DNA from: Deltaproteobacteria bacterium
GTDB taxonomy: Bacteria; Desulfobacterota; BSN033; UBA1163
Length of the DNA stretch: 64,000 nucleotides
Direction of reading: 5' to 3'
Assembly (NCBI GenBank): GCA_020059605.1
Contig: JAGVBT010000028.1
Span: 1-64,000, forward strand
Shown: in pieces, positions 19,160-63,232 of the stretch
Position numbering within the stretch: position 1 is the stretch's first letter
How the letters are laid out: each line of letters opens with the position of its first letter
Program-made: the position numbers and the translations under genes
The notes under the pieces: model-generated
What the model saw: the letters and a program-made list of their open reading frames with translations, nothing else
The model's database searches: none
What the model was told of the DNA's origin: nothing

Positions 19160-19891
19160 AAAAAGGGGACAGGCTACTTTTTAGAGGAGTTTTAGATGCC
19201 AAGAATTTCAAGAGGATTGGTTGATGAATCAATATATCATGTCATCAATCGAGGAAATGGTGGCCAAATAGTATTTCATAAAGATAAAGATTATGAGGCA
19301 TTTATAGAATTAATGAAAAAAGCAAAGGACCGTTATGAAGTTAAGATTTTCGGTTATTGTCTTATGCCCACCCATTTTCATATCATTGTAATGCCCCATC
19401 TTGCTGAAGATTTAAGCAGATGGATGCAATGGCTAATGACAAGTCATGTTCGCCGATATCATCGGCATTATGAAACGAGAGGTCATGTTTGGCAGGGACG
19501 TTATAAGAGCTTTCTTATTCAAAAGGACAATCATTTATTGATTGTGATGCGTTATGTGGAAGGGAATCCAAAACGAGCTGGGTTGGTTAACTCAACGAAG
19601 GACTGGTTGTGGTCGTCAAGCCAAGAATCATTGGGAATGAGAAATCGTGTTTTGATTGATACCATTCCTTTAGAATTACCTGCAGATTGGGAAGATTATG
19701 TGAACGAACCGGTTACTGCAAAAGAATTAGAAAGAATTCGACAAAGTGTTATTCGACAGGCTCCGTATGGAGATGAATCTTGGAGATTGCAATTAAGCAA
19801 AGATTTGGGATTAGAATCCACAGTTAGGCCAATTGGAAGGCCAAGGAAAATTTATGCCGGGTAATAAAAAAAGTAGCCTGTCCCCCTTTTT
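19160..19891. mobile_element. RAYT-type element 3, autonomous, carries the transposase (732 bp)
   Basis: The same inverted ends as elements 1 and 2 (19160-19182, and 19868-19891 reversed) enclose a Y1/HUH transposase gene. The right end differs from the other two copies by one extra C (CCCCC instead of CCCC), making it 24 bp. That base decides the reading frame into the following epimerase gene. The left end starts at the end of the WbpD-like gene's stop codon (TAA 19157-19159). Confidence 0.88.
19196..19864 (+). CDS. REP-associated tyrosine transposase (RAYT, Y1/HUH)
   Basis: Single-strand DNA transposase of 222 residues with the Y1_Tnp fold. The HUH motif is H60-F-H62 in MPTHFHIIVMPH, and the catalytic tyrosine is Y120 in MRYVEGNPKRAG; both are intact. 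RGHVWQGRYKSFLI is a typical family block. GAGGAG stands 7 nt before the ATG. Its composition is visibly more AT-rich than the neighbouring glycan genes, in keeping with a mobile origin. It probably acts on the flanking GGGGACAGGCTAC ends and could move elements 1 and 2. Its 3' end overlaps the proposed start of the 2-epimerase. Confidence 0.92.
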   Translation: MPRISRGLVDESIYHVINRGNGGQIVFHKDKDYEAFIELMKKAKDRYEVKIFGYCLMPTHFHIIVMPHLAEDLSRWMQWLMTSHVRRYHRHYETRGHVWQGRYKSFLIQKDNHLLIVMRYVEGNPKRAGLVNSTKDWLWSSSQESLGMRNRVLIDTIPLELPADWEDYVNEPVTAKELERIRQSVIRQAPYGDESWRLQLSKDLGLESTVRPIGRPRKIYAG

Positions 19892-40150: not shown

Positions 40151-40184
40151 GGTCCAATTGAAGATGGGTTGCGTCCAACGGCAA

Positions 40185-40350
40185 CGAGGCCCGTTTCGGT
40201 TATCGGTAACGGTTAGGTGATAACCCCATTAGGAATTGCAGTCGTTGCCACTCGAAACCGAGGGGGGCATGATTTCTAACGGGGTAAAAAATTAAAAGAC
40301 GATCAACGTAACCTTTTACAAACGATACGGGCTTCGTAACCGTAACCGTT
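40185..40350. repeat. Internally deleted S23 cassette derivative, with a nested repeat
   Basis: The left end AACGAGGCCCGTTTCG then GGTTATCGGTAACGGTTA matches the left end of the S23 cassettes at 59091 and 61366. The right part (AAAAGACGATCAACGTAACC to CGATACGGGCTTCGTAACC, about 40294-40341) matches their right end, including the bases of the S23 gene's last codons. The gene itself is missing. In its place is a smaller inverted element (40226-40285, CCCCATTAGGAA / TTTCTAACGGGG) related to the one before hfq. Confidence 0.7.
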
Positions 40351-40385
40351 TAACTTTAACGGACCGTTAACCTAAAGGCAAAACC

Positions 40386-41166: not shown

Positions 41167-41197
41167 CTAACGTGTTACAAAAAATGAAGATTACGTG

Positions 41198-41298
41198 TAA
41201 CGGTTACGAGACCGGTTTCGGTTATCGGTAACGGTTGTGTGATTATGATTTGAAGACGTCACCTGCAACCTTCTATGAACGATACGGGCGTCGTAGCC
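41198..41298. repeat. Deleted S23 cassette derivative (ends only, about 101 bp)
   Basis: The left end TAACGGTTACGAGACCGG then TTTCGGTTATCGGTAACGG and the right end CGATACGGGCGTCGTAGCC match the S23 cassette ends. The 40 or so bases between (GAAGACG...CAACCTTCTATGAA) correspond to the right inner flank. No part of the S23 gene body remains. Confidence 0.65.
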
Positions 41299-41343
41299 CT
41301 GACCGAAAAACGAAGGTCCGATTTCGATACGAGCCTCGCAGCC

Positions 41344-42279: not shown

Positions 42280-42500
42280 AACGATTTTTGGTTAAAGGCT
42301 AAGGTGAGGAAGCCGGTTTGGTGAAAGGTCAATGGGTCAGGGCGAATGAATTAAAACCATTGCATTTATCCAAAGACAAAACAGGCTTCTTTGCCTTTAC
42401 ATTAACTTATTAACATCGCTCATTCTGATCACTTGACTTTAATGTAAAAAAATATAAAATAGTATTTGATGATTTTCAATCACCGTAACATGTGATACAT

Positions 42501-57676: not shown

Positions 57677-57711
57677 AAGTGTGCCTTAAATATAAGTTTT
57701 GGAGGTGTATT

Positions 57712-57954
57712 GTGAGTGTTGTTAGAATGAACATAACAATTCCAAAAGAATTGGCAGACGAAATTGAAAAATTGACTCCATCCAGAAAAAGAAGTTCCTT
57801 TATTGCTGAAGCGTTAAGACAAAAAGTTAAGGATCTTCAACGGGAAAGAATAGAAAAAGAACTTGAAGAGGGGTACAAAGTAAGAAGAAATGAAAGCTTA
57901 ACTTTTGCGCGAGAATTTGAATGTGTCGATATGGAGGGGTGGGATGAATATTAG
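57712..57954 (+). CDS. RHH antitoxin (MazE-like role)
   Basis: 80-residue ribbon-helix-helix antitoxin. VVRMNITIPKELADEIEKLTPSRKRSSFIAEALRQKVKDLQRERI is the RHH domain, and an acidic tail (FECVDMEGWDEY) follows that would bind the MazF groove. GTG 57712 with GGAGG six bases upstream; ATG 57727 is the alternative. The stop overlaps the toxin start by 11 bp. Confidence 0.83.
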   Translation: MSVVRMNITIPKELADEIEKLTPSRKRSSFIAEALRQKVKDLQRERIEKELEEGYKVRRNESLTFAREFECVDMEGWDEY

Positions 57955-58288
57955 GAGAGGAGACATTTATCTTGCGGCTTTGGACCCGGTTTTGGGAAAA
58001 GAAATTTCTAAGACGAGACCTGTCGTTATCATGTCGAATGATAAAAATAATCTATTTTCGGCTACGGTGACCATTCTTCCCATTACTTCAAAGAATGTTG
58101 ATCAAACCTACCCGTTTGAGGTGTTTTTACCTTCAGGAACCGCAGATCTTCCTAAGGACTCAAAGGTTAAAGCTGACCAGATCCGGACTATCGACAGATC
58201 AAGAATCATCAAACACATCGGGGCGCTCAAATCCTCTGAGGTAAAGAGTATTGAAAACGCTATCAGGCTTCACCTGGGATTGACATGA
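57944..58288 (+). CDS. mazF: MazF/PemK-type mRNA endonuclease toxin
   Basis: 114-residue type II toxin. MNIRRGDIYLAALDPVLGKEISKTRPVVIMSNDKNNLF is the fold start with GDIY and the RPVVI strand, and VKADQIRTIDRSRI holds the Asp-Gln-Arg region needed for RNA cutting. It seems intact. GGAGGGGTGGG precedes the ATG inside the antitoxin gene. Confidence 0.88.
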   Translation: MNIRRGDIYLAALDPVLGKEISKTRPVVIMSNDKNNLFSATVTILPITSKNVDQTYPFEVFLPSGTADLPKDSKVKADQIRTIDRSRIIKHIGALKSSEVKSIENAIRLHLGLT

Positions 58289-58318: not shown

Positions 58319-59080
58319 ATGCTGACCTTTGCTTCTATTCTTTTTGGGGCGGTGGTGGGGAGTTTTTTGAATGTGTGCATTCACAGGCTCCCTAAAGAAG
58401 AATCCATTGTGAGGCCGGGATCTCACTGTCCCGAGTGCAAGACCCCGATTCGATTTTATGATAATATTCCGTTGATCAGTTATCTATTGTTGGAGGGAAA
58501 ATGCCGGTATTGCGGGGTCTCGATCTCCCTGCAATATCCCCTCGTTGAAGGAATCACTGCTTTAGGTTCGCTTCTCGTTTTCGTCAAATTCGGATTTTCT
58601 CTCAATTATTTATTTTACTTCTTTTTTGTCGCCGCCCTCATCGTTATTACCGTCATCGACCTTTACCATCAGATCATTCCGGATGTGATCAGTCTTCCGG
58701 GTATTGTGATCGGACTCCTGGGGTCGCTGAGTATTTCTCCGATCACTTTCTCGACCTCTTTGATCGGTGCGATTGCGGGAGGGGGAAGCCTTTTTTTGGT
58801 GGCCGCGGGCTACCAGTGGCTGTTCAAAAGAGAAGGGATGGGGGGAGGGGATGTGAAACTTCTGGCCATGATCGGGTCTTTCCTGGGCTGGAAATCCGTG
58901 ATCCTGACCATTCTCTTAAGCTCATTCATCGGATCCATCATCGGCATTGCCGTCATGCTCATCAAGGGGAAAGATTTTAAATACGCCATCCCCTTCGGGC
59001 CCTTTTTATCCATGGGGGCCGTCATTTCGCTTTTTATCGGGGAAGAATTGATAAGGTGGTACCTTTATTTTAACAGGTAA
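58319..59080 (+). CDS. pilD: Prepilin peptidase / N-methyltransferase
   Basis: Eight-helix membrane aspartic protease of 253 residues that cuts and methylates prepilins at the cytoplasmic face. The zinc-binding pairs are CPECKTPI and CRYCGVSI (about 40-68), the first catalytic Asp is in VIDLYHQIIPD and the second in the GxGD motif GMGGGDVKLLAM. The three pilins at 47236-48613 are its natural substrates. The cassette containing a broken S23 gene starts 10 nt after its stop. Confidence 0.93.
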   Translation: MLTFASILFGAVVGSFLNVCIHRLPKEESIVRPGSHCPECKTPIRFYDNIPLISYLLLEGKCRYCGVSISLQYPLVEGITALGSLLVFVKFGFSLNYLFYFFFVAALIVITVIDLYHQIIPDVISLPGIVIGLLGSLSISPITFSTSLIGAIAGGGSLFLVAAGYQWLFKREGMGGGDVKLLAMIGSFLGWKSVILTILLSSFIGSIIGIAVMLIKGKDFKYAIPFGPFLSMGAVISLFIGEELIRWYLYFNR

Positions 59081-59090
59081 AGGTAAGGGC

Positions 59091-59560
59091 AACGAAGCCC
59101 GTTTCGTAAATCGGTAACGGTTACGTAAAATGAAAAGGATAACAAGTTTTCGGGATATTTGGAAGTTTATCAGGGCACCTATCAGGGATGTATTGAAGTA
59201 ATGACAAAGATTATTCCAAATATCCCTGATATTGAAAACAATGACCTGAAAGGCCAACTTAGACGCTCGGTCAAAGCTATCCCCAGATTGATTGCTGAAG
59301 GTTATGCCAAAAGGCACCAAAGACGTGGATTTCAGAAATATCTCGACGATGCCATGGGGGAATGTAACGAAACGATTGTTGGATTGGAACAATGTAAGGA
59401 TTTATATGGGGCGAGTGTAGATAGAAATTTATATGAAGAGTTAATTGATTTGTATGATAAATCCGGAAGACAGCTCTATAACTTGTCATCTGCATGGAGT
59501 GGATTCAAAAGACGATAAACGTAGCCTTCTCTAAACGATGCGGGCCTCGTTACCGTTACC
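59091..59560. mobile_element. S23 four-helix-bundle cassette, copy A (470 bp)
   Basis: Left end AACGAAGCCCGTTTCG (59091-59106), then ATCGGTAACGGTTACGTAAA up to the S23 ATG. Right end CGATGCGGGCCTCGTTACC (59536-59554) is the inverse of the left end with a few changes. Same organisation as copy B (61366-61833), and an internally deleted relative at 40185-40350. It lies between pilD and the pilS-like gene, ending 17 nt before the latter's ATG. Confidence 0.75.
59130..59518 (+). pseudogene. Four-helix-bundle protein (S23/IVP family), N-terminal frameshift
   Basis: ATG 59130 starts MKRITSFRD, but an extra AT at about 59155-59156 shifts the frame relative to copy B. The remaining 119 codons (from TTG 59159, LEVYQGTYQGCIEVMTKIIP...) are intact and match copy B at about 105 of 119 residues. 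Translation might still start at TTG 59159, without a ribosome site. Members of this family are the proteins of 23S rRNA intervening sequences and relatives of Avd; here no rRNA is near. Confidence 0.7.
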
Positions 59561-59577
59561 TTTATACGATAAACTTT

Positions 59578-61350
59578 ATGGGGAAACCATCCTGGCTTTT
59601 TAAACGATTAAATCTCACCCTCAGGACGGAGGTGGTTGTCAACATCTCCCTTCTGATGTTAGCCGCCATTTTCCTGATCGGATTTACCACCTTTAGGGCC
59701 AATGAAAAAAACATCATTCAATCGAAGATCAGGAGCTGTGAGGGCATGGTTCAGGATTTTCAAACGATCGTGGACTTTATTCTGCGGGAGAAGGGGAAGC
59801 AGGGGTTAAACGCTTCGTCCCTGAGCATGGAGATACAGGATTTCATCCAGGTCTACGGGAAAGATCGAAATTTCTACGAGTTGGTGGTTACCGACCGGGA
59901 AAGGAGAGTCATCGCAAGCCCGAACTCCGACCGGATGGAAAAGAGCTACGATTCTGCCCTGCTGAAATATGCCATGGAAACAGCGAGCATTCAAACAGAG
60001 TTTGAAAAAGAGGGGGGTCTTCTGGCATCGGAATATAAAAAACTGTCACTCGCCTCCCCCCTATGGATCAGGGGAAAGATAGCGGGGGGCATTTTGATGG
60101 AAGTGCCCACCGGAGATGTGATGAGACGCTTATTGGATTATCAAAAGATGTTTCTCGTTTTAATCATCCTGGACTCCATGGTCCTGGTCGTGTTCGGAAG
60201 CTTCTTGCTCTCACGGGTGCTCGTCAGGCCCCTGAAGGACCTGGTCCGGCTGACTCAGAAGATCAGCCAGGGGGATTTTAATCAAACGATTGAGGTAAAC
60301 TCAACGAATGAGATCGGGCAACTGGTCACATCGTTCAACAGGATGATCGAACGCTTAAAAGAAAACCAGGAAAATATAAAAATTCATCTGGACTCCCTCG
60401 AACTGGCCAACGAAAAGCTGAAACAGGCGCAGGAGGAGCTGATCCGGACAGAGAAACTCGCCTCGATCGGGAGGTTTGCCGCAGGGGTCGCTCACGAAGT
60501 CGGCAACCCGCTGGGCTCCATTCTGGGTTATACCAGTATCCTGGCCCGGGAGGATGTGACCCATGATGAGACACGGGATTATTTAAAAAGGATCGAGAAA
60601 GAGATTGAGAGGATCAACCGGATCGTGAAGGAATTGCTCAATTTTGCAAGACCCTCCAGGCTGGAAATTCAAGAAGTCAAAGTCAACAAGGTCATTGAGG
60701 ATGCCCTTTCGTTGCTTTCCTATCAGAAAGGGTTTAAAGATATCGAGACTCGCCTCCATCTTCAGCCCGATCTTCCCATGATCAAGGGAGATGAATCCCA
60801 GCTTTCCCAGGTTTTTATCAATATCATCCTCAATGCAATCGATGCCATGCCCCGGGGAGGGGTGTTAGGCATCGGGACGGAGGATTATGTGGTGGGAACG
60901 GGGGAAAAAAACTATTTTGACCAGGCCTATTTGCCGAGGCGCAAAGATGATCCCCTGGAGACCGATTATTCCCACCTTCGAAGCCCCAATCCTCTTTTTA
61001 CCACGATAGAAAGCTCCCCTGCCTATGACGGAGACGGAATAGATAAGATCTTCATCCCATACAGAATGGGTGGGGTAAAAACCAGGTCTTTATTAACAGG
61101 GTTTGCAAAGTTTACACGGGGCGACCGGTTGATCAAGGTGACCATATCGGATACGGGGACGGGAATCCTGAAAGAGGACATGGAGAAAATATTTGACCCT
61201 TTCTTTACGACAAAAGATCCTGACCGGGGCACAGGGCTTGGGTTATCGATTTCGCTCCGGATTATTGAATCCCTGGGAGGAGAGATCAAGGTCAGGAGCG
61301 AAGCAGACAAAGGGACGGCGTTTGAGATATATTTTCCGGTCACGACATGA
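59578..61350 (+). CDS. pilS: PilS-like sensor histidine kinase with an insert in the ATPase domain
   Basis: 590-residue membrane sensor kinase. Helix 1 (about 19-37), a periplasmic region of about 150 residues, helix 2 (about 192-213), HAMP (about 214-266) and a coiled coil lead to HisKA with GRFAAGVAHEVGNPLGSILGY (phospho-His306). The ATPase has QVFINIILNAIDAM (N box), DTGTGI, and GTGLGLSISLRI. About 60 extra residues separate the N box from the D box (GTGEKNYFDQAYLPRRKDDP to FTRGDRLIKVTI). ATG 59578 is used; the frame upstream is cassette sequence. Probably the partner of PilR downstream. Confidence 0.82.
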   Translation: MGKPSWLFKRLNLTLRTEVVVNISLLMLAAIFLIGFTTFRANEKNIIQSKIRSCEGMVQDFQTIVDFILREKGKQGLNASSLSMEIQDFIQVYGKDRNFYELVVTDRERRVIASPNSDRMEKSYDSALLKYAMETASIQTEFEKEGGLLASEYKKLSLASPLWIRGKIAGGILMEVPTGDVMRRLLDYQKMFLVLIILDSMVLVVFGSFLLSRVLVRPLKDLVRLTQKISQGDFNQTIEVNSTNEIGQLVTSFNRMIERLKENQENIKIHLDSLELANEKLKQAQEELIRTEKLASIGRFAAGVAHEVGNPLGSILGYTSILAREDVTHDETRDYLKRIEKEIERINRIVKELLNFARPSRLEIQEVKVNKVIEDALSLLSYQKGFKDIETRLHLQPDLPMIKGDESQLSQVFINIILNAIDAMPRGGVLGIGTEDYVVGTGEKNYFDQAYLPRRKDDPLETDYSHLRSPNPLFTTIESSPAYDGDGIDKIFIPYRMGGVKTRSLLTGFAKFTRGDRLIKVTISDTGTGILKEDMEKIFDPFFTTKDPDRGTGLGLSISLRIIESLGGEIKVRSEADKGTAFEIYFPVTT

Positions 61351-61365
61351 AGAACCAAATCGATT

Positions 61366-61833
61366 AACGGTTACGAAGCCCGTTTCGTCATTCGGTAACG
61401 GTTACGTAAAATGAAAAAGATAACAAGTTTCCGGGATTTGGAAGTTTATCAAGGAACCTATCAAGGATGTATTGAAGTAATGACAAAGATTATTCCAAAT
61501 ATCCCTGATATTGAAAAAAATGACCTAAAAAACCAGCTTAGACGTTCTGTCAAGGCTGTCCCAAGATTGATTGCCGAAGGGTATGCCAAAAAGCATCAAA
61601 AACATGGTTTCCAGAAATATCTCGATGATGCCATGGGTGAATGTAACGAGACTATTGTGGGATTAGAACAAAGTAAAGATTTATATGGTGAGAAAGTTGA
61701 CAAGGTACTATGTGAAAAGCTCATTGATCTGTATGATAAATCTGGAAGACAACTCTATAATTTATCGTCTGCGTGGAGCAAATTTAAAAGACGGCTAACG
61801 TAAACTTTTTCTAACGAAACGGGCCTCGTAGCC
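61366..61833. mobile_element. S23 four-helix-bundle cassette, copy B (468 bp)
   Basis: Left end AACGGTTACGAAGCCCG then TTTCG (61366-61387), with a second TAACGGTTACG just before the gene. Right end CGAAACGGGCCTCGTAGCC (61815-61833), which matches the inverse of the left end at 17 of 19 positions. In the same orientation as copy A, and on the other side of the pilS-like gene. Confidence 0.78.
61411..61803 (+). CDS. Four-helix-bundle protein (S23/IVP family), intact copy
   Basis: 130 residues, all alpha. MKKITSFRDLEVYQGTYQGCIEVMTKIIPNIP opens helix 1; the family blocks LRRSVKAVPRLIAEGYAKK and FQKYLDDAMGECNETIVGLEQSKDLY and SGRQLYNLSSAWSKFKRRL follow. Related proteins form homopentamers (as S23 and the reverse-transcriptase accessory Avd). 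No Shine-Dalgarno lies upstream because the left repeat abuts the ATG. The gene interrupts the spacing of the pilS-like and pilR genes. Function unknown. Confidence 0.85.
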   Translation: MKKITSFRDLEVYQGTYQGCIEVMTKIIPNIPDIEKNDLKNQLRRSVKAVPRLIAEGYAKKHQKHGFQKYLDDAMGECNETIVGLEQSKDLYGEKVDKVLCEKLIDLYDKSGRQLYNLSSAWSKFKRRLT

Positions 61834-61858
61834 GAAACCTAAACCCGAGGAGGAATTA

Positions 61859-63232
61859 ATGGTTCCCAGACGCATTCTGATTGTAGATGACGAAGAGAGT
61901 TTTCGAAATGTATTGACGGTGATCCTTAAAAAGGAAGGCTATGAGGTAGAGGGCGCCGCCAATGGAGAGGAAGGGTTGAAAAAGATTTTCGATTCGGCGT
62001 TTGACCACATTCTTTGCGATATCCGGATGCCGCAGATGGATGGGCTCGAATTTTTGCAGGAATCCAAGAAGAGGGGAGAAGAGTCTCCGATCATCATGAT
62101 GTCGGCCTATGGAACCGTGGATACCGCCATCGAGGCCATGAAGTTGGGAGCCTACGATTACATCTCAAAACCATTCCGGCCGGACGAGATTATTCTCACT
62201 CTGAAAAAAGCAGAAGAGAGGGAAAGGCTCAGAAAAGAAAACGAACTGCTGAAGAGGGAAGTCCGAAAGGAATATAGCTTTGAGAACATCGTGAGTAAAA
62301 ATGAGAAGATGATCAAATTGTTTGAGATTATAAGGAAAGTGGCCCCCTATAAATCGACCATCCTCATCACAGGAGAAAGCGGAACGGGCAAAGAATTAGT
62401 TGCCAGGGCCCTCCACTATAGCAGCGATCGGGAGAAAATGCTTTTCGTTCCGGTTAATTGCGGCGCCATCCCCGAGAATCTCCTCGAAAGCGAGCTGTTT
62501 GGCCATGTGAAGGGGGCCTTTACCGATGCCATTCGAACGAAAAAGGGCCTTTTTGAGGAAGCCGATGAGGGAACCATCTTTCTGGACGAGATAGGAGAAC
62601 TGCCCTCTCAGCTTCAGGTGAAGCTTTTGCGGGTGCTTCAGGACGGGGAGATCCGGAGGGTAGGGGAATCGAAGTCAATCCGAATCGATGTCAGAATCGT
62701 TGCGGCAACGGTCAAGGATCTTGTCCGGGAGGTAAACGAGGGAAGATTCAGGGAGGACCTCTTCTACCGTTTAAATGTGCTCCATCTTAATCTTCCGCCG
62801 CTGCGGGAAAGGAAGGAGGATATCCCCCTGCTTGTCCGGCATTTTATTAACAAGTATAACCAGGTCCTGAACAAACAGGTCAAAGACGTTGATCCTAAGG
62901 CTCTGGAGTCATTGATGAACTATAAATGGTCCGGAAATGTGAGGGAATTGGAAAATACGATCGAACGGGCTCTGGTTCTGACGGACGAAGAAAAAATAGA
63001 CCTGGAATATTTGCCTTTGGGGATTCAGAATTTTCAGAACGATGTTCCGGTGGTTCCCATAGTTGAGGAGGAATATTCGATTAAGAAAACATCGAGGTTC
63101 ATGGAGATGAGTCTCATCAAAAAGGCATTGAAAAAGACGAAGGGAAATCATACCCAGGCCGCCCGCCTGCTGGAGATCAGCCACCGGGCCCTCCTCTATA
63201 AGATCAAGGATTATGGGATCGTAGAGAGTTAA
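61859..63232 (+). CDS. pilR: PilR/NtrC-type sigma-54 transcription activator
   Basis: 457 residues in three parts. The receiver domain has DDEE at the start, phosphoacceptor Asp54 in [12 protein letters not shown], Ser82 and Lys104. The AAA+ domain has Walker A GESGTGKE (172-179), GAFTDA (219-224) at the sigma-54 contact loop in place of the usual GAFTGA, and Walker [12 protein letters not shown]. The HTH_8 C-terminus is [31 protein letters not shown] is well placed. Expected to activate the sigma-54 promoter of the pilins at 47082. A terminator lies at 63281. Confidence 0.9.

Follow-up and report, generated by a model that had tools for sequence, protein, structure and literature searches.

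Two spacers of a single gene cluster in the 64,000-nt window, the whole stretch of DNA analysed here, each hold a compact unit in which one small gene is enclosed by inverted ends. The question raised by this locus is whether such a unit, whose only gene is established to be one for an S23/IVP protein, is mobile DNA, and what might move it. We regard the mobility of these units as very probable, on the strength of genome comparison, and are more guarded about the mechanism.

The intact unit, copy 2 (61366-61841), lies between a sensor histidine kinase gene (59578..61350), whose synteny with relatives gives the empty sites described below, and a sigma-54 response regulator gene (61859..63232), recognised by profile match and synteny. 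Its four-helix-bundle gene (61411..61803; ATG start, 130 aa) is a member of the S23/IVP family, matching PF05635 at E 2.7e-15 (56.9 bits against a curated cut-off of 33.8) and TIGR02436 at E 2.2e-13 (50.3 bits, cut-off 24), with a match of the protein to PDB 2GSC at E 1e-3. The left arm (61366..61402) comprises GGTTAC-type units, with the palindrome CGAAGCCCGTTTCG at 61374-61387 and then CGGTAACGGTTACG, and is common to the gene-less elements described below; the right arm (61810..61841) has the inverse palindrome at 61815-61828. Copy 1 (59080-59571) is located between a type IV leader peptidase gene (58319..59080; PF06750 and PF01478) and the kinase gene. Its left arm (59080..59125; palindrome 59093-59106) and right arm (59525..59571; inverse palindrome 59536-59549) enclose an S23 gene (59130..59518) that still matches PF05635, and in which the ATG frame is disrupted by a 2-bp insertion after approximately codon 9, leaving a TTG-started ORF of 119 aa (59159-59518). 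All of these features are on the + strand. In both copies GGTTAC-like units and CGAAGCCCGTTTCG come first, as the left arm, and the right arm has the inverse. To the left of the leader peptidase gene, at 57679-58288, two small overlapping ORFs appear by reading to be antitoxin-like and MazF/PemK-type toxin-like.

A sequence-only reading of this DNA had proposed two copies, at 59091-59560 and 61366-61833, sharing a gene and ends built on the palindrome and its inverse. Both copies are present there, 84% identical over 459 nt (88% between the S23 products); CGAAGCCCGTTTCG opens both with no mismatches, and its inverse closes them with one and three mismatches. The shared S23 gene and the related inverted ends thus stand, with the correction that the copy 1 gene is broken. 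Taken alone, the palindrome shows just a mild enrichment in the window (17 matches with up to three mismatches, 8.3 expected), so the significance of the ends rests on their full length. Segmental duplication is ruled out as the origin of the two copies, because similarity halts at the unit ends and the repeats do not run on beyond them. The placement of both units in protein-gene spacers, not in rRNA, is also borne out, as the neighbours are leader peptidase, kinase and regulator genes.

The gene order leader peptidase-kinase-regulator is common to eight genomes, which differ in what their spacers hold. Between kinase and regulator, the window's genome (G000) and G015 share an S23 gene with one kind of arm, G011 contains a gene-less element, and G002 has a related S23 gene flanked by arms of another kind. 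The same spacer is empty in G005, G009, G010 and G012, and arrays are absent from it in G009 and G012. The peptidase-kinase spacer contains S23 in G000 only, among the compared syntenic genomes. By its kinase (71–74% identity to G000) G002 is nearer to the window's genome than G015 is (58–60%), yet by its S23 it is farther (66% compared to 81%), so a simple vertical history cannot accommodate all three together; a tree of five close S23 copies did not resolve their branching. Inverted elements of another family, with ends of the type CGATGCTCGTATCGAA...TTCGATACGAGTTTCGACAACG, were seen at L023 (1544-1707), at L124 in G002, and at L134, the leader peptidase-kinase spacer of G015; in G002, ends of this type surround an S23 gene.

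The gene-less derivatives that had been suspected elsewhere proved to be numerous. A covariance model, R1, built from 18 of them, found at least 56 in the window's genome, and its search of 16 family relatives found 14 with gene-less elements, from 10 to at least 56 each, and none in G009 and G010. Aligned genome copies share a constant form of approximately 130 bp that retains the two arms and has a short A-rich run at the S23 position; this looks like the product of a deletion between A-runs. Three are found in the window, at 41188..41323 (+ strand, E 5.8e-19), at 40166..40366 (+ strand, E 1.7e-18), where an insertion of about 65 bp is nested near the S23 position of full units, and at 42290..42420 (+ strand, matched on both strands, E 1.1e-7), a weak and degenerate case. 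The nested insertion has near-inverted ends of its own, CCCCGTTAGAAAT / ATTCCTAATGGGG, and the gene-less elements L014, L015 and L016 are split within the end palindrome by a CCTGCC/GGCAGG-rich repeat. The gene-less consensus folds at -44.8 kcal/mol with its arms paired, but terminal repeats pair by construction, and as the covariation term was approximately zero, with one pair changed on both sides, the fold is no proof of RNA structure.

Insertions can be seen with base precision on related Nostoc plasmids that have a common operon. At site 1, 53789 pC reads TTCTAG-gtt-ATG, and the 3-bp spacer is found in four further plasmids, while in C052 pD, 53789 pA and N6 a unit with CAGGAGT-type arms and S23, approximately 420 bp where whole, occupies exactly the interval from stop to start codon. 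One spacer downstream, 53789 pC has a different S23 unit with AGGGGAAA-type arms, in a spacer of 0–4 bp in eight other compared plasmids. The empty Nostoc sites contain no array at all. In N6 the S23 gene is interrupted by a gene-less element with arms of the same kind, and what remains in C052 pE, at a site where Trichormus and Scytonema have the whole unit, is the left arm and a partial S23. The Nostoc-plasmid unit also occurs on Aulosira, Trichormus and Scytonema plasmids at 78–81% nucleotide identity, with the query alignment halting at the unit ends. TTCTA stands at both edges of site 1, which may reflect unit similarity only; no target-site duplication was seen at the nested insertion in N6, and no convincing one was found. 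Elsewhere on Nostoc plasmids (L292 on N6 pNPM1, L293 on C052 pB), heptamer-bounded gene-less elements have a hairpin-rich cargo containing GAATCCCCCACT, which we take to look like an IS200/IS605-type end. On plasmids 1 and 2 of one Calothrix brevissima strain (L284, L285), a shared small block of genes following a phage-integrase-family gene includes S23.

Mobility is supported by the occurrence among relatives of one spacer in filled, gene-less and empty form, together with the base-exact Nostoc sites. Insertion places the element as one precise block in the interval between genes, mostly in the sense orientation within operons, and gene-less derivatives reduced to the arms either remain behind or are found alongside it. 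These comparisons uphold the earlier proposal of a mobile element that has S23 as its only gene or is moved in trans, and the outcome that had been named as its refutation, copies at two places only with no empty sites, is countered by empty sites both in relatives and on Nostoc plasmids.

The anatomy of the window units turns out to be general. In the window's phylum, comparing each upstream flank with the reverse-complemented downstream flank placed most S23 genes between inverted short-unit arrays. A cross-phylum scan of named genomes, using an eight-sequence S23 alignment as query since a 20-sequence alignment was too diverse, recovered 80 S23 loci, bacterial and archaeal and spread over many phyla, of which 76 were testable. 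With an inverted arm called at a score of at least 30 and controls drawn from the same contigs, inverted arrays of approximately 7-nt repeats were found at 55 of these 76 loci (72%), outside the window's family. The same call was made in 0.6% of 1866 shifted windows and, among other genes, at 7 of 125 (Fisher p 4.5e-24). Roughly 28% of the S23 loci show no detectable inverted arm. The best repeat period was 7 at 42 of the 55 inverted-arm loci and 8 at seven, and the left arms are rich in AG/GG steps (672, against 170 for CT/CC), which are the commoner kind at 49 of the 55. An independent draw from Xanthomonadales, the order of Rhodanobacter, gave inverted arms at 25 of 30 S23 loci and in 1 of 138 windows, with arm units that include GGGACTC and GGGATTC; S23 itself is patchily spread in that order (115 of 299 genomes). 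A one-sided array test, set at the 99% control level, was positive at 26 of 94 loci, a low figure because control windows also hold long repeat runs, and the inverted test is the stronger of the two. Arrays at some S23 loci are very long and slipped. The arms in the window, with 6-nt units plus a palindrome, are an outlying form, and what the sequence-only reading missed is that they are one case of the inverted arrays of 6–8-nt units that surround S23 across bacteria.

S23 genes are thus typically the sole gene of a mobile element. Between co-directional genes they lie in the sense direction at 40 of 60 loci and in antisense at 4, an orientation that would fit a gene read from the host operon; gene-less elements are less biased (21 in sense against 9). 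A motif test, as distinct from an rRNA model, detected 23S rRNA-like motifs at none of the 80 cross-phylum loci, and no S23 relatives were found in viral contigs.

Gene-less arrays follow the S23 units with which they share a genome, matching the resident S23 arm type in eight of nine genomes and in none of three others. Eight of the nine genomes with S23 arms of the CAGTNNTCAGT... type, or close to it, contain that pattern, at up to 210 matches, and it is absent from all three with other S23 arms. Reversed, it gave no matches in most genomes, 7 in G062 and 19 in G064. The converse repeat TTAGTGG has 15 matches in G068, the S23 of which has such arms, and occurs weakly in G062. Gene-less pairs are convergent as S23 arms are (for example, 1021+ and 1070- on contig C177 of G060). 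Arm similarity also tracks S23 protein similarity (Mantel rho 0.19, p 0.001; p 0.003 for the cross-phylum set), a correlation expected in part from the two travelling together.

Our preferred explanation, which as a whole we consider rather probable, is of an inverted-arm S23 element whose arrays are read by S23 and whose joining is left to a host or other enzyme. Each unit would be one insertion, in which a lone S23 gene is enclosed by inverted arms of short units (usually 7 nt; in the window 6 nt, with a palindrome added). In the solved S23 protein XCC0516 (2GSC), four-helix bundles are assembled into a pentamer (PMC4990558). Such a ring could bind the arrays, in single-stranded or hairpin form, with approximately one unit per subunit, and could act in trans on gene-less copies built on the matching repeat. 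The breaking and joining would fall to the host or another enzyme, probably via a hairpin formed during replication. TRAP is a ring that reads repeated units, and by analogy a ring of this kind would explain both arms of approximately 4–5 units and the relation in trans. We favour binding of the arrays and action on gene-less copies in trans, and put the chance that S23 acts on the ends of its own element at about even. To our knowledge the four-helix bundle has no nuclease or transposase chemistry, which counts against S23 as the mover, and the related S23 at the same site between other ends in G002 also weighs against this explanation.

The S23-only arrangement has a precedent in rRNA. The intervening sequence (IVS) of the Coxiella burnetii 23S rRNA is a single S23p ORF between terminal inverted repeats, with heptameric repeats just upstream of the ORF; it is considered selfish, and its origin has been called unclear, with transposition long suspected (PMC4990558). 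The window units likewise have a single S23 ORF in the loop of a stem that their terminal inverted repeats would form. IVSs, however, are located in rRNA, from which RNase III excises them, whereas neither copy is inside a 23S rRNA gene and both are between protein genes. S23 genes in 23S rRNA may belong to the same class, as elements that landed in rRNA. Heptamers are the most abundant intergenic tandem repeats, with no clear clue to their function (PMC6344855), and have been described as GGGAATC in Xanthomonas, often in convergent pairs (PMC4692102), as TAACTGA in Beggiatoaceae (PMC4679880) and as paired sites in Geobacter that were read as regulator sites (PMC2700814). They share with S23 arms the unit length and, in Xanthomonas and Geobacter, the convergent pairs on opposite strands, but in these descriptions they are not connected to S23 and have no accepted origin; no paper linking heptamer or flanking repeats to S23 was found in the open-access literature. 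Since the same layout surrounds S23 genes in many phyla, an explanation for common bacterial 7-nt repeats can be offered. Three puzzles meet here, namely the role of the S23 protein, the origin of rRNA intervening sequences and the dominance of 7-nt tandem repeats in prokaryotic intergenic DNA, and one class of S23-only elements would answer all three in outline and make them testable. The boldest form of this proposal, which we put forward tentatively and give somewhat less than an even chance, is that S23 represents a novel kind of mobility protein. As a pentameric ring it would recognise approximately five 7-nt units at each end and mobilise both its own element and the gene-less copies that match it, with no transposase, integrase or reverse transcriptase belonging to the element; it would also have given rise to the intergenic heptamer repeats and the rRNA intervening sequences.

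The arrays might instead be immobile. If S23 were a regulator round which binding arrays grew by repeat slippage, on the pattern of TRAP and its triplets, the very long slipped arrays at some loci would follow, as would the published reading of such arrays as regulator sites (PMC2700814). We hold this very improbable, because gene-less copies are dispersed and sister plasmids have filled and empty sites that match to the base; these sites refute a purely vertical history, which would require exact excision everywhere. Arrays could also have come first, as hotspots between which recombination drops S23 genes, and the numerous gene-less arrays suit that order of events; with no array in the empty Nostoc sites or in the empty spacers of G009 and G012, we give it hardly any credence. 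Among mechanisms of movement, an RNA route would have the operon transcript fold at the arms and be copied by a reverse transcriptase, with S23 as a helper similar to Avd, the accessory protein of diversity-generating systems (DGRs). Avd is a homologous four-helix bundle (PMC10053308), the NCBIfam Avd model matches an S23 at E 9e-9, and the strong sense orientation within operons is as this route predicts. That bias may reflect only a need for expression, and gene-less copies show less of it. The partners of Avd, moreover, are a reverse transcriptase and a template and variable repeat, and S23 units show no link to such a system in the reverse-transcriptase search: six element-rich genomes (G001, G002, G004, G013, G014, G015) gave no reverse-transcriptase match, and the only one in G000 is on contig C5, not the window's contig. 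We therefore consider this route improbable.

Somewhat less improbable, though still unlikely in our view, is that the units resemble REPINs, are mobilised in trans by a REP-associated Y1 (HUH) transposase, and have S23 as passenger or helper. The ends are palindromic hairpins in inverted pairs and, as with REPINs, there are many intergenic gene-less copies; the window's genome has 18 Y1 genes, and G009 lacks both Y1 genes and elements. S23 units differ from REPINs in carrying a gene and in having arms that are generally heptamer arrays, which across phyla are not REP palindromes. Abundance does not agree either, as G001 has one Y1 match yet at least 54 elements, and G010, which has two Y1 genes, lacks elements. 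Many Y1 genes (L031-L043, including the domain at 19226..19564 on the + strand of the window) have inverted ends of their own, of two types, GGGGTCAGGC/GGGGACAGGC and GGGACGTTG. No S23-type paired ends occur within 1.5 kb of the Y1 genes of G000, where only two distant palindrome matches with three mismatches were seen, and no RAYT flanked by such ends was found. The gene-less copies also resemble MITEs, being short and non-autonomous with inverted ends, but their full-length relative codes for S23 only, and neither a clear target duplication nor a parent transposase was found; the search for a parent with the same ends, non-exhaustive for larger units, returned only S23-bearing full units. 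The transposase or reverse transcriptase sharing these ends for which a search had been advised was not found. In G012, identical Y1 transposase fragments stand at positions 3-134 or at the far end of many contigs, so that this assembly seems to be broken at a recent IS200-like element.
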